A stretch of DNA of 48,117 nucleotides from assembly GCA_017519145.1 (NCBI GenBank), contig JAFWTA010000060.1, forward strand, positions 1 through 48,117. Direction: 5' to 3'. Shown here in pieces: positions 29,827 to 34,347 of the stretch. The number at the start of each line of letters is the position of its first letter. The stretch's first letter is position 1. The position numbers and the translations under genes were made by a program. The notes under the pieces were generated by a model. It saw only the letters and a program-made list of their open reading frames with translations. It searched no databases and had not been told where the DNA came from. This stretch comes from Ruminococcus sp. (GTDB lineage: Bacteria; Bacillota; Clostridia; Oscillospirales; Ruminococcaceae).

Positions 29827-30138
29827 CTATATTATAACATAAAATCAGATCAATAGCAAGATGCGCGGTGTAAAACCTGATATTGACAATAGCTATGCCG
29901 CGGAAACATGGGCGGCGGCTCGCCGCTTACAACACATAATCGAATTAACAGCAAGGGTCGCGGTGTGAAAGCTGATGTTAACAATGGCTCGCCGCTGTCC
30001 GCAAATAATGTGCAGGACAGACACGATTTAACGATAAACGATAAATTTTTATCGTATAAACTGTACAAAGGCTGCCGCTCCAAAGACTGCCGTTTATATG
30101 CAAACATACAATAATTAACGATAAACATTAAAAATACA

Positions 30139-30167
30139 TTGACAAACATTAATACCCGTGGTATGAT
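30139..30167 (+). promoter_or_regulatory. Sigma-A promoter of the DUF2975 cluster
   Basis: TTGACA (30139-30144), a 17-base spacer and TATGAT (30162-30167) lie 62 bases upstream of the first gene. It is the only good promoter seen for the six genes that follow. Confidence 0.8.
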
Positions 30168-30229: not shown

Positions 30230-30721
30230 ATGAATAACGAAAAAATGATCTCAAAACTCAAAGTCATCAGCAGAATATCAGTAGTCGGCGTCATCGCCTA
30301 TATCGCTCTTATGGCTTACCGCTACCTGCCCGATGCGATAAGCGGCTTCATGGACGGCTGGAACTCATACGACGAAAGCGCGGCTGCCGCTGACGAAATG
30401 CCCGTGTGGAAGATTCTCACTGCTGTTCCCTGCGGTATCGCCTTTGCAGCAACTCTGATAATCATTATCGCTGCGGGACTTCAGCTGCTTTTCAGGCTCA
30501 GCAAGGGCAATTCACCTTTCAACGAAAGGGTAAGCAAGTCCATCAAAAATCTGGGAGTCAGCTGTATCGTGTTCGAGATAGTAAGAACGTTCCTCATGTT
30601 CGTCACCCTCGACACCGTACACATCGGTATGCTGTGGCTGGCAGGACTGGTGTTATGTGCATTCTCGCTGATATTCCGCTACGGAACTATATTACAGCAG
30701 GAGTCCGATGAGACACTGTAA
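30230..30721 (+). CDS. DUF2975-type membrane protein, paralogue 1
   Basis: This 163-residue protein has four predicted membrane helices (near 15-35, 60-86, 108-124 and 128-146). The family signature, a cytoplasmic SKGNSPFNERVSKSIKNLG segment, sits between helices two and three, and the C-terminus reads FRYGTILQQESDETL. It is about as similar to the third gene of the array as recent paralogues are (both start MNNEKM). DUF2975 proteins have no settled biochemical function. ATG follows AAAGGAGTAATTATT. First of five consecutive paralogues ending in the same six residues. Confidence 0.85.
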   Translation: MNNEKMISKLKVISRISVVGVIAYIALMAYRYLPDAISGFMDGWNSYDESAAAADEMPVWKILTAVPCGIAFAATLIIIIAAGLQLLFRLSKGNSPFNERVSKSIKNLGVSCIVFEIVRTFLMFVTLDTVHIGMLWLAGLVLCAFSLIFRYGTILQQESDETL

Positions 30722-30731
30722 GGAGGGCGCT

Positions 30732-31199
30732 ATGGATAAGGAGAAGCTTACAAAAAAGATAAAAAAGCTCAGCAGGTTTACTTTCTATGCAATGTTTTTT
30801 TACTGCATACTTAACTGCTGCGACATCTGGCCCGACAACGTAAAACGACACAATGTGGATATGGACATCAACGATATGCCCCTATGGAAAGGCATACTTT
30901 CCATTGCCGCCATATTCTTCCTCGTGGTCGGCGTGGTGGGCGCGTTCATCTCCGCCATGAAGATCATGTCATATCTCAGCAAGGGGAGGACGCCCTTTAC
31001 CAAAAAGACTGCAAACCGCGTCCGCGATCTGGGAATTTACTTCATCGTTATGGAGATAGCCTGCAATGCTCTGGTCTTTATAGGCTCGGGAAAAATCGAG
31101 CCGGAGCTGTTCTGGCTGGCGGGACTGGTGCTTTATGCGTTTTCCGTAGTTTTCCGCTATGGTGCAAAGCTACAGAAAGAGTCAGATGAGACATTATAA
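30732..31199 (+). CDS. DUF2975-type membrane protein, paralogue 2
   Basis: This 155-residue protein has about four helices and the segment LSKGRTPFTKKTANRVRDLG, and ends FRYGAKLQKESDETL. It is clearly related to its neighbours but diverged in the first half, including a Cys pair YCILNCCDIW that the others lack. The start at 30732 was chosen because AGGAGG overlaps the stop of the previous gene (TAAGGAGG) and sits 5 bases before it. Function unknown; co-transcription with the array is inferred from spacing of 10 bases. Confidence 0.85.
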   Translation: MDKEKLTKKIKKLSRFTFYAMFFYCILNCCDIWPDNVKRHNVDMDINDMPLWKGILSIAAIFFLVVGVVGAFISAMKIMSYLSKGRTPFTKKTANRVRDLGIYFIVMEIACNALVFIGSGKIEPELFWLAGLVLYAFSVVFRYGAKLQKESDETL

Positions 31200-31209
31200 G
31201 GAGAATACT

Positions 31210-31701
31210 ATGAATAACGAAAAAATGCTTTCAAAACTCAGGATACTCAGTAGAATTTCAGTAGTCAGCGTTATCGCATATATCGTACTTGCGGCATATA
31301 ATTTCTTTCCCGAAGCTAAGCGGGACTTTTTAAGCGGCATGAACGCCTATGAAAGCGGCGAGGAGGTAATGAAAGATCCTTCTCTTTGGAAAGTACTTAC
31401 TGCTTTTCCCTGCGATATCGCACTTGTGACATCGCTGGTGATAATCATCGTTGCAGGTCTGCAACTGCTTTTCGGAATGAGCAAGGGCAGCTCCCCGTTC
31501 AATGAAAAGGTAAGCAGGGCTATAAAAAATCTCGGAGTAAGCTGCATTGTATTCGAGCTGCTCAGAACATACTTATTCTTTATTATAGAGGAAACTGTTA
31601 ATATTGGTGTGCTCTGGCTTGCAGGCATAGTTCTCTACGCATTTTCGCTGGTTTTCCGCTATGGAACATTTTTACAGAAAGAATCCGACGAAACATTATA
31701 A
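31210..31701 (+). CDS. DUF2975-type membrane protein, paralogue 3
   Basis: This 163-residue protein is the closest paralogue of the first gene. Shared blocks include MNNEKM.SKL, SRISVV, AGLQLLF, SKG.SPFNE and KNLGVSCIVFE. It has four helices and ends FRYGTFLQKESDETL. The central extracellular loop (about 35-60) differs, suggesting diversification there. The start at 31210 is set by AAGGAG, which again overlaps the upstream stop codon. Function unknown. Confidence 0.85.
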   Translation: MNNEKMLSKLRILSRISVVSVIAYIVLAAYNFFPEAKRDFLSGMNAYESGEEVMKDPSLWKVLTAFPCDIALVTSLVIIIVAGLQLLFGMSKGSSPFNEKVSRAIKNLGVSCIVFELLRTYLFFIIEETVNIGVLWLAGIVLYAFSLVFRYGTFLQKESDETL

Positions 31702-31713
31702 GGAGGCTTAACA

Positions 31714-32175
31714 ATGAGCAAATCAAACGCAGAAGCAAAAATAAAAGAGAGCAGTCTCGCCATAATGGTTATATCTTTGATCGACGCTGCCCTGACAGCC
31801 TGTGCAGGCTTTTATCAGCTTTTATCAGATACAGAAAGAATATCCGACGACTTTGCCAAAAAGATGATGCTAAAGACAGCTTTATCAAACATCATATGCT
31901 CCGTCATACTTATTATAGCAGCTGTCATTTTCTACAGGATAGCCAAAAGCGCCAGACCTTTTACTAAGGGCAATATCACCGCTATCCGCATAATAGCACT
32001 GCTGTTCCTAATAAATGCAGTCCTGCCGTCGATAATCGTTGGAATGTATCTTGGCTTTGCCAAAATAAGTATTATCGGCCCAGGCTCGATATTCAACGCA
32101 GCACTGTGTTTCTTCTTCGGTGAGATACTGCGCTACGGAAACCTGCTCCAGACCGAGTCCGACGAGACATTATAA
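31714..32175 (+). CDS. DUF2975-type membrane protein, paralogue 4
   Basis: This 153-residue membrane protein is the most diverged of the set but keeps the plan: four helices, a shortened SARPFTKGNITAIRI segment between helices two and three, and the tail LRYGNLLQTESDETL. The N-terminus is polar (MSKSNAEAKIKESS). AAGGAGG overlaps the previous stop and lies 7 bases before ATG. Function unknown. Confidence 0.83.
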   Translation: MSKSNAEAKIKESSLAIMVISLIDAALTACAGFYQLLSDTERISDDFAKKMMLKTALSNIICSVILIIAAVIFYRIAKSARPFTKGNITAIRIIALLFLINAVLPSIIVGMYLGFAKISIIGPGSIFNAALCFFFGEILRYGNLLQTESDETL

Positions 32176-32188
32176 GGAGGGATTATAA

Positions 32189-32860
32189 ATGGAGAAGACA
32201 ATAGTATCAAACAAGGACAAGAACGTACAGAAAGTCAATACACTGGGCAAGGTCAGCAGGATAATGCTGAATATAGCTCTCACCGCACTCATCATCGGCA
32301 TGGTGACCTGCATAGTGATGTCAATATATTTCTGTACACTGCCTAAGGACGCAGTGGCTCTCAAGGGCGATTTCAAAGGCAGCGTGACCGTCAGCCATGA
32401 GCTGCCCGAAAAGTTCATCGTAATAAATGAGGAAGACGTGGAAGTCGGCAAGGAAGGCAGACAGCTGAAATACTCCGTTACCGAGAACAGGGACGAGGAC
32501 AACAACAAGGTCTATGACATAAGCTTCCTGCTGGACAAGCTGACGGGAACCGAGCTGAAGCTGGTGGCAGCAGGCGCAATGGCGCTGATAGCTTTATCCC
32601 TGCTGATACTCAGTATCATCGTCATATTCGGCAAGAAACTTGCAAAGGCACTGGAAACCTGCGACTCGCCCTTTGAGGACAATGTGCTGAAAAAGATGAA
32701 GTCATTCGGTTTTTCGCTTATCCCATGGGCACTATACAAGCTTATAGTGGGAAATCTTGGCGGTATCACAACAGTCATCTTCGTGCTCATAGTTCTGCTG
32801 TTCATCAGCGTATTCAACTACGGCGCAAAGCTCCAGCGCGAGTCCGACGAGACACTGTGA
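32189..32860 (+). CDS. DUF2975-type membrane protein with extra extracytoplasmic domain, paralogue 5
   Basis: This 223-residue protein is longer than the others because about 75 polar residues (about 52-125, including KGSVTVSHELPEKF) are inserted between helices one and two, on the predicted outer side. The rest follows the family: CDSPFEDNVLKKMKSFG, two more helices and the tail FNYGAKLQRESDETL. The insertion might be a ligand or partner-binding domain; this is inference. AAGGAGG again overlaps the upstream stop. The XRE regulator gene follows 9 bases later. Confidence 0.83.
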   Translation: MEKTIVSNKDKNVQKVNTLGKVSRIMLNIALTALIIGMVTCIVMSIYFCTLPKDAVALKGDFKGSVTVSHELPEKFIVINEEDVEVGKEGRQLKYSVTENRDEDNNKVYDISFLLDKLTGTELKLVAAGAMALIALSLLILSIIVIFGKKLAKALETCDSPFEDNVLKKMKSFGFSLIPWALYKLIVGNLGGITTVIFVLIVLLFISVFNYGAKLQRESDETL

Positions 32861-32869
32861 GGTGGGAAT

Positions 32870-33085
32870 ATGTCGATAATCCTCAGACTTGACCGCGTTA
32901 TGGCGGACAGAAAAATGAGCCTTAACGAGCTCAGCGACCGCGTTGGCGTCAGCAACGTGAACCTCTCCAAGCTGAAAACGGGAAAGGTAAGCGCTATACG
33001 CTTCTCCACCCTCAATGCCATCTGCAAGGTGCTTCAGTGCCAGCCCGGAGATATCCTTGAATTCATTGATGACGACAAGGAGTAA
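32870..33085 (+). CDS. YozG-like XRE-family transcriptional regulator
   Basis: This is a 71-residue Cro/CI-type helix-turn-helix protein. The DNA-binding fold covers residues about 6-62 (MSLNELSDRVGVSNVNLSKL with the recognition helix near VSNVNLSKLKTG), and it ends CQPGDILEFIDDDKE. This matches the small YozG-like group that is commonly paired with a DUF2975 gene, for example next to yoaS in Bacillus subtilis. It probably controls the array it ends. AGGTGG overlaps the preceding TGA stop. No dimerisation or sensor domain is present, so signal input, if any, must come from a partner. Confidence 0.9.
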   Translation: MSIILRLDRVMADRKMSLNELSDRVGVSNVNLSKLKTGKVSAIRFSTLNAICKVLQCQPGDILEFIDDDKE

Positions 33086-33134: not shown

Positions 33135-33176
33135 AAAGCCCCTGAGTGTCCGCAAACTCTCAGGGGCTTTCTTATA
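33135..33176. terminator. Bidirectional terminator between the DUF2975 cluster and serA
   Basis: AAAGCCCCTGAG and CTCAGGGGCTTT form a 12-bp stem around a 12-base loop, with T-rich DNA to the right and A-rich to the left. It can end both the plus-strand array and the minus-strand serC-serA transcript. Confidence 0.88.
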
Positions 33177-33186
33177 TCATTATATA

Positions 33187-34347
33187 TTACTTGATGATCC
33201 TTACTCTGATAACGCCGTCTACTGCGTTGATCTTGCCCTCTACTGTGGGAGGTACATCACCGATGATATCGAGCATTGTGTAAGCAAAGTCCTTCTTGCT
33301 TGCGTTTACCATGTTCTCGATATTGAGTCCCTCATTGCCTACTGCTGTTGTGATGGAAGCAATAGTTGTGGGTACGTTCTTGTGGATGATGCAGATCTTT
33401 GTGCCGACTGCGTTCATTGATGCGTTGGGGAGGTTTACGGAGTTCTTGATGTTTCCGTTCTCAAGGTACTCGATGAGCTCCTCAGCTGCCATTACTGCAC
33501 AGTTGTCCTCGCTCTCGGGTGTGGAAGCACCAAGGTGAGGAAGAACGATAACGTTATCAACGCCGAGAACTACGTCATCAGCAAAGTCTGTAACGTACTT
33601 TGCTACCTTGCCGTCAGCGATAGCCTTTACTACTGCCTCGCTGTTGATGAGCTCGCCTCTTGCGAGGTTGATAAGACGAACGCCGTCCTTCATCATTGCG
33701 ATCTGCTCAGCATCGATGGTGTTCTTTGTCTGAGGAGTGTAGGGCATATGAATTGTGATGTAGTCGCTGTTTGCGTAGATCTCGTTGATATCGGAAACGA
33801 TCTTTACTGTAGGATCGAGGTGGAGAGCTGCTCCGATGGAGATGTAGGGATCGTAGCCGATGACCTTCATGCCCAGAGCCTCTGCTGCGTTTGCGATCTT
33901 ACCGCCGATAGCGCCCAGACCTATGATACCAAGTGTCTTGCCTGCGATCTCGGGACCTGCAAACTTGGACTTGCCGCCCTCAACTGTCTTGGGAGCGTCG
34001 GGTGTGCCCTTCAGTGAAGCTGCCCATGAAGCTGCCTCAACGATCTTTCTTGAAGCAAGGAGAAGTGCGCATACTGCAAGCTCCTTAACTGCGTTTGAGT
34101 TAGCACCGGGAGTATTGAATACGCAGATACCCTCCTGTGCGCAGCGCTCAACAGGGATATTGTTTACGCCTGCACCTGCACGGGCAATTGCGAGAAGGTT
34201 GTCGCCGAACTGCATATCGTGCATCTTTGCGGAACGTACCATTATTGCATCGGGGTTTGCAATTTCCTCGGCAACAGCATACTTGCTCTTGTCAAATACA
34301 TCTGTTCCGACTGCTGAGATCTTGTTTAATGTCTGGATATTGTACAT
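33187..34347 (-). CDS. serA: D-3-phosphoglycerate dehydrogenase
   Basis: SerA oxidises 3-phosphoglycerate in the first step of serine synthesis. The 386-residue protein has the NAD-binding GIIGLGAIGGKIANAA (about 140), the active-site Arg in LINLARGELIN (about 229) and His in VLPHLGAST (about 270), and a C-terminal ACT domain (about 315-386) for feedback binding. AGAGGTTTACAGAA precedes ATG. It lies 43 bases after serC, the next enzyme of the pathway, in one operon. Confidence 0.95.
   Translation of the reverse strand: MYNIQTLNKISAVGTDVFDKSKYAVAEEIANPDAIMVRSAKMHDMQFGDNLLAIARAGAGVNNIPVERCAQEGICVFNTPGANSNAVKELAVCALLLASRKIVEAASWAASLKGTPDAPKTVEGGKSKFAGPEIAGKTLGIIGLGAIGGKIANAAEALGMKVIGYDPYISIGAALHLDPTVKIVSDINEIYANSDYITIHMPYTPQTKNTIDAEQIAMMKDGVRLINLARGELINSEAVVKAIADGKVAKYVTDFADDVVLGVDNVIVLPHLGASTPESEDNCAVMAAEELIEYLENGNIKNSVNLPNASMNAVGTKICIIHKNVPTTIASITTAVGNEGLNIENMVNASKKDFAYTMLDIIGDVPPTVEGKINAVDGVIRVRIIK

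Follow-up and report, generated by a model that had tools for sequence, protein, structure and literature searches.

Why does a rumen bacterium carry five related membrane-protein genes in a row in front of a single small regulator gene? The question is raised by a 48,117-nucleotide contig of Ruminococcus sp. (JAFWTA010000060.1, assembly GCA_017519145.1; this whole stretch is called the window here), in which the genes P1 to P5 and a regulator gene form one plus-strand operon of a Ruminococcus flavefaciens-like rumen bacterium. In the following, D denotes the DUF2975-like membrane-protein genes and proteins, and X the HTH_26 (YozG-like) regulator. All five D proteins of the window end in YGxxLQxESDETL, a tail that had been missed in a preliminary description of this DNA. 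Sequence comparison, together with analogy, leads us to propose with about even confidence that the operon is autoregulated and that its D proteins act on one autorepressor through this shared C-terminal peptide, as SdpI acts on SdpR.

The shared C-terminal tail

The tails lie at the following positions.

30692..30718, plus strand, P1 tail, LQQESDETL
31170..31196, plus strand, P2 tail, LQKESDETL
31672..31698, plus strand, P3 tail, LQKESDETL
32146..32172, plus strand, P4 tail, LQTESDETL
32831..32857, plus strand, P5 tail, LQRESDETL

Because a first scan, which returned 79 loci, had used the tail peptide itself and was therefore unusable for judging tail conservation, a genus set was collected with the whole D profile. 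This gave 100 regions, 98 of them with X, and together with the window 99 loci with 141 D genes. Across these 141 tails the Q was invariant, D was found in 139, T in 132 and S in 126, and the last residue was L in 100, V in 34, I in 6 and A in 1. Mean column conservation was 0.85 for the last nine residues and 0.38 for 141 body columns, a contrast that is partly built in, since the profile included the tail and the script used to chain open reading frames (ORFs) prefers tailed ORFs. It was calculated on 140 proteins after removal of the one at L245, which has a C-terminal end of a different type. The 83 occurrences of the peptide ESDETL are encoded by 50 distinct DNA words, and no two of the five window copies are spelled alike. 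Selection therefore acts on the protein, and the likeness of the tails is not due to homogenisation of the DNA.

At three archaeal loci from Methanomethylophilaceae metagenome-assembled genomes (L084, L098 and L111) ESDETL is followed by CGA where relatives have TGA. The D frame then continues for four more residues in L111, and in L084 and L098 it crosses the X gene in a different reading frame; this may reflect readthrough, a frameshift onto X or loss of the tail end. D-X operons with an ESDETL tail and a close relative of X were also seen on Thermoplasmata-binned gut contigs (L084, L092, L096, L098, L101, L111 and L144). Unless these bins are mixed, this points to a transfer of the operon between bacteria and archaea of the gut.

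The operator and its co-occurrence with tail and regulator

Upstream of the operon promoter, two perfect copies of a palindromic operator start 87 bp apart, at 30028 and 30115; this double site, too, was absent from the preliminary description.

30028..30045, plus strand, upstream operator O2, TTAACGATAAACGATAAA, perfect match
30115..30132, plus strand, operator O1, TTAACGATAAACATTAAA, perfect match; ends 6 bp before the −35 box, at a position conserved in the promoter logo of 136 nonredundant loci
30139..30167, plus strand, strong sigma-70-type promoter, −35 TTGACA, 17-bp spacer, −10 TATGAT, 11/12 match to consensus

The logo was derived from promoters aligned on the −35 box (160 loci, 136 nonredundant; promoter scores below 10 excluded) and showed a conserved TTAAYGWTAAACRWTAAA directly upstream of this box as well as AAACGTWAA from the end of TTGACA onward. 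A second operator with at most three mismatches was located 85–88 bp upstream of O1 in 71 of the 75 nonredundant genus loci. In 14 of 73 rows of the named set the best second site lay instead 56–57 bp downstream, and 11 of these 14 are titled Lachnospiraceae or Lachnospira; at three of the 14 (L100, L118 and L124) O1 itself had no match at the anchored place. Five of the 75 genus loci (L164, L184, L214, L243 and L245) gave no operator at up to three mismatches. The 87-bp spacing is near 4 x 21.75 bp; some loci have weaker sites that lie about 22 bp away from O1, and from these distances we infer that binding to the two operators may be cooperative.

In the interval between the operators (30046-30114 in the window, and the same interval across the genus) about 20 bp on each side are conserved around a variable middle, with TGCACAA after O2 and TTTATATGCAAACATACAAT before O1. 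These flanks are in part inverted repeats and are possibly further X sites or sites of another regulator. A palindrome between the −35 and −10 boxes, ATACCCGTGGTAT, was rejected as an operator: it occurs in 1 of 172 loci, and shuffles give 0.8 for a shorter form.

Strong operator sites other than these two are nearly absent from the window genome. In this genome (3.17 Mb, 94% complete) three sites were found at up to two mismatches. The two perfect ones are O1 and O2, the third has two mismatches, and a reversed control pattern gave two matches. Since no other strong operator is present there, the module appears to regulate mainly itself. In a scan of 125 genomes all 39 perfect sites listed stand directly upstream of D genes found by profile, as compared by eye. 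Operator-like sites away from D loci were inspected in 11 regions; those of L249-L251 proved to be one and the same coding start, and the five of L252-L256, which have no common context, were likewise discarded. The canonical DUF2975 locus L257 had no operator site.

The presence of tail, operator and X was then compared across loci. Within the genus, genomes G110 (L230) and G060 (L232) retain a D body that is 39% identical to its nearest tailed kin, with no X at E 1e-18, no operator upstream of D and no tail; their D proteins end in QKGTDTMNAADKPMD and QKGANTTNAADKPIE, respectively. L230 has an HtpG-like gene (named by eye) immediately upstream, oriented as it is in the nearest kin, L208 and L209, and because of this shared synteny the L230 lineage looks like a case of secondary loss. 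Another genome, G026, has a marginal D match (E 6e-4) and no X. Outside the genus, 197 genomes of the order were searched with X and with a D profile, A4, from which the last nine residues had been cut off. D matches were obtained in 25 genomes besides that of the window, and 20 of the 25 regions were compared. By coordinates, X is no further than about 65 nt away in four of the five genomes left out; the fifth, G173, is cut by a contig end. An acidic C-terminal tail was found at 15/15 D loci with an adjacent X and at 0/5 without, and 8 of the 15 tails are of the SDETL kind (such as QSDETL, ESDTTL, QADETL, LSDETL and ESDETL). Three of the five genomes without an adjacent X carry a more distant X elsewhere. 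The operator palindrome followed the same division, with at most one mismatch in 14/14 loci with X (L280, which is cut short, excluded) and at least three in 7/7 loci without; the best match among shuffled copies has, on average, 2.7 to 6.1 mismatches, and in several loci of both kinds it has one, and at L275 the best site is 276 bp upstream of the ORF start used. In the sampled loci, as judged by sequence, the tail accompanies X, while D can persist without X. Because the X-less lineage keeps the D body, the D proteins presumably have a function of their own.

Operon layout, copy number and protein family

The remaining features of the operon are the following.

30230..30721, plus strand, P1, 163 aa, DUF2975-like membrane protein, paralogue group A by tree; PF11188 25.9 bits, E 1e-5, below cut-off
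30732..31199, plus strand, P2, 155 aa, DUF2975-like membrane protein, group B by tree; PF11188 25.5 bits
31210..31701, plus strand, P3, 163 aa, DUF2975-like membrane protein, group A, 63% identity with P1; PF11188 17.3 bits
31714..32175, plus strand, P4, 153 aa, DUF2975-like membrane protein, group C by tree; PF11188 22.4 bits
32189..32860, plus strand, P5, 223 aa, DUF2975-like, group D, beta-rich loop past helix 1; PF11188 9.3 bits, E 1.4
32870..33085, plus strand, X, 71 aa, YozG-like XRE regulator (HTH_26), putative autorepressor by adjacency at related loci; PF13443 E 1.3e-24
33135..33170, plus strand, terminator hairpin, −23.1 kcal/mol, z −6.46

This layout agrees with the preliminary description, which had placed at the same positions five plus-strand genes of 153-223 codons and a 71-residue XRE gene, served by one promoter at 30139 and one terminator at 33135. 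The overlap of each Shine-Dalgarno sequence with the preceding stop codon was also seen at all five junctions, which read TAAGGAG(G) four times and TGAGGTGG once. An upstream ATG at 30708 is an alternative start of P2 and would extend it to 163 aa. The terminator hairpin converges with a minus-strand gene ending at 33187; it was detected by folding energy and is absent from the consensus-scan listing. The nearest named locus, that of Ruminococcus flavefaciens strain SAb67, is 93% identical to P1.

The D proteins were described at the outset as DUF2975-type. This holds in so far as DUF2975 is the top-scoring Pfam family for P1-P4 and the sole match for P5, but all five scores are under the PF11188 gathering cut-off of 27 bits. 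P1-P4 align through the C-terminal half of the 130-position profile as far as position 129 (E 1e-5 to 0.005), and the kinship of P5 with the other D proteins is drawn from profile and tree. P1 exceeded the cut-off (27.9) only in a six-frame search, by summing neighbouring same-frame matches. NCBIfam gave no match above its cut-offs for the window proteins, and DUF2975 was found above cut-off in 5 of 14 control genomes (Bacillus subtilis, Caulobacter, Bacteroides, Corynebacterium and Lactococcus). Identity of P2-P5 to P1 is 23-63%. Each protein has the PF(N/T/E) segment noted before, in the order PFN, PFT, PFN, PFT, PFE. The expected four helices or so were recovered for P1, whose predicted structure (mean pLDDT 87) has four, the tail forming the terminal part of helix 4. 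The P5 model (mean pLDDT 77) shows three helical stretches, the last of which, of 59 residues, is probably two membrane passes, and a low-confidence beta-rich loop at 58-118 after the first helix. Likenesses of the P1 fold to complex I/Mrp small subunits and to claudin/TARP-type proteins were set aside (E 0.9 or worse), as was that of P5 to pentameric ligand-gated channels, which is not significant (best E 0.052). A sequence search of the PDB gave nothing (best E 1.2).

X covers the HTH_26 profile completely (positions 1-63 of 63, 86.7 bits for a cut-off of 22), and the domain takes up almost all of this short protein. It is encoded beside the D genes, as YozG-like companions usually are; the companion is not part of the Pfam definition. 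In 95 of the 99 genus loci the distance from the D stop to X is at most 30 nt. An alpha/beta-hydrolase-like gene, so named by eye, stands between the D genes and X at L123:7351-8394, L135:3612-4655 and, shortened, L126:6494-7006. At L107:6774-7055 a small membrane-like ORF of 93 aa lies between the last D gene, with the tail ESVETL, and X. The neighbouring genes, named by eye and with no family search on them, look housekeeping and show clade-specific synteny.

The number of D genes, counted with the ORF-chaining script, for which either a tail or a profile match sufficed, was one in 71 of the 99 genus loci, two in 19, three in 5, four in 3 and five in 1, the window. Some counts may be low through contig ends; L184 and L243 start near a sequence start. 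The first proposal, that a DUF2975-like gene has expanded locally under a YozG-like regulator of its own, is thus supported, with the window as the maximum, and arrays of at least three copies are not common (9/99). A tree built on 55 D proteins of 24 chosen loci has four groups, to which the window proteins belong as follows: A (P1, P3), B (P2), C (P4) and D (P5). A protein of group B (L076), C (L236, L240-L242) or D (L158, L159) also occurs as the sole D protein with X and with the operator upstream. The closest relatives have four D genes and lack P3, by sequence an additional copy of group A; at L067 the order of P2 and P4 is swapped. Since three groups are also found singly beside X, and members are missing or rearranged in close relatives, we read the array as an additive set and not an obligate complex; the fixed multi-component assembly of the preliminary description is not supported.

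Proposed autoregulation, rival readings and related systems

In the mechanism that we propose, X would bind the palindromic operators at its own promoter and repress the D..D-X operon. The D proteins would be small polytopic proteins of the membrane, their bodies acting on, or sensing, something at the envelope, and X would dock on their conserved cytoplasmic C-terminus (E-S-D-E-T-L). With D engaged or in excess, the tail would hold X at the membrane, repression would be relieved and more D would be made. In the array several D bodies would feed one X, giving one switch with several inputs. Such self-regulation suits an inducible protective or homeostatic membrane function. The fuller version, a tail-gated repressor in which diverging receptors, in tandem up to five, use one peptide to control one repressor bound cooperatively to two operators about 87 bp apart, is put forward more tentatively, at somewhat less than an even chance. 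Of the earlier idea of a sensor set under its own regulator, the convergence on one regulator finds support in the common tail and in the fact that tail, operator and X are absent together, and what the bodies would sense stays part of the proposal.

Several observations weigh against this tail-repressor mechanism. Two array members have an altered tail residue (ESGETL and ESVETL), looser tails (DVDGLL, DSDGLL, DVEGLV) occur at 7 of the 15 X-bearing loci outside the genus, and the sequences of L084, L098 and L111 indicate that the C-terminus is not free everywhere. Within the genus, X is clearly absent from just one lineage, L230 and L232 being close kin, and the five X-less loci outside it are distant and may be ancestrally tail-less. 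Tail class covaries with X residues 5, 6, 9, 12, 13, 18, 30 and 38 in 168 nonredundant pairs, a covariation that follows phylogeny and can serve as a lead. In the genus scan, two-mismatch operator sites were as frequent as the reversed control, and weak targets therefore cannot be judged. A two-mismatch site recurs in the same promoter interval of three genus genomes (L258:2890-2914, L259:3071-3088 and L260:3001-3018), between genes that by eye are HAD-like and CobO-like. It may be a second X target, in which case the module would perhaps not be closed everywhere, and our confidence in the mechanism was slightly lowered because of it; in the window genome the scan at up to two mismatches gave no operator-like site in this interval. 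A PDB fold search with the P1 and P5 models gave no match at E ≤0.001, and clustering of neighbouring ORFs gave no partner gene recurring across clades that would point to the input.

The main rival keeps the link between tail and X and reverses its sign. X would need the tail, directly or through membrane anchoring, in order to repress; the operon would hold D levels constant, and signal binding or loss of D would free X. The comparative evidence from the tail and the joint absence fits either sign, and homeostasis would be well served by an operon that regulates itself while strong operators elsewhere are few. The precedent, SdpI/SdpR, works by sequestration, however (PMC1626106), and we regard the reversed sign as unlikely. 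Still less probable is an obligate five-subunit hetero-oligomer (a channel or transporter) in which the tail would signal assembly or targeting and X would be an ordinary local regulator. The single operon with its short junctions would accord with this view, which was that of the preliminary description, but groups B, C and D each serve as the only D gene with X and operator, 71 of 99 loci are single-copy, close relatives lack P3 or are reordered, and the tail is gone where X is gone although the body is kept. The tail, as a short exposed C-terminal peptide, could also be a degron or a dock for a housekeeping protein such as a protease. We give this little credence, since the tail tracks X locus by locus, which a housekeeping partner would not explain. 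A toxin-antitoxin pair, with D as membrane toxins and X as antitoxin or repressor, is very improbable: an Xre + YoaS-like pair did surface in a toxin-antitoxin screen, and its authors' reply to a reviewer left membrane toxins open, but they excluded the pair from their list (PMC2701414), the neighbours here form clade-specific synteny, and in G060 and G110, where X was not detected, the D body is kept intact, other neutralisers not having been searched for.

Should the tail-repressor mechanism be true, an extra receptor gene would be an extra input to an existing switch, with no new regulator needed, and the expanded array would be a simple case of a bacterium adding inputs to a one-gene regulator. 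The DUF2975 family is widespread, and tail, operator and natural X-less genomes together turn it into a testable signalling hypothesis whose components are a peptide of 6-9 residues, a protein of 71 residues and an 18-bp site. No functional study of DUF2975, PF11188, yoaS or yozG was found in the open-licence literature, most subscription papers being outside this scope; in the parts of that literature covered, yozG otherwise appeared only as a transcriptome-table entry. Judged by the same literature, the gene pair is of a known kind without assigned function, and what is new about it is the link between tail and regulator, the arrangement of the operators, the joint absence of tail, operator and X, and the array of five genes.

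Three known systems can be compared with the window operon. For the first, SdpR is an ArsR-type regulator. In Bacillus subtilis, SdpI sequesters this autorepressor at the membrane, and SdpI-SdpR shares with the window operon a polytopic membrane protein, an autorepressor of the common operon and the proposed logic of membrane sequestration (PMC1626106). It differs in that the window regulator is of the HTH_26 family and no partner gene recurs beside the D-X operon across clades; among the Pfam matches listed up to E 10, none of the window proteins matched the SdpI family. The second is the gene pair of Xre and a 'YoaS-like' membrane protein, with 32 occurrences in Table 2 of Makarova et al. 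2009, where it was called a 'likely permease' and disregarded (PMC2701414). It is the same kind of gene pair, and the passages on it mention no tail, operator or arrays. The name 'undescribed system', given earlier to the window array, therefore fits only in part, such a pair having been listed and set aside in 2009 (PMC2701414).

Finally, the window genome itself carries, on another contig, one bona fide DUF2975 gene (L001) with its own YozG-like neighbour. The namesake of this canonical pair is YoaS-YozG of B. subtilis, which we take to be a DUF2975 protein and its neighbour. As in the array, the membrane-protein gene is followed directly by that of a 71-aa HTH_26 regulator, the C-terminus reads E-x-D-x-T-[ILV] and a palindromic operator stands just upstream of the −35 box. 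Among the canonical DUF2975 genes of the genus with a complete tail (n = 21: L001, L008-L024 and L026-L028), 20 end in ENDFTI and one in ENDFTV, and each precedes a distinct YozG class. An operator of the TTATTGAAAAACGATAA kind was counted by eye at the same place in 16 of these 21 promoters, and in the other five the promoter finder chose no good promoter. The canonical pair thus differs from the array in its tail (ENDFTI in place of ESDETL), its operator (TTATTGAAAAACGATAA), its single D gene and its class of X, which is 62% identical over 66 aa.

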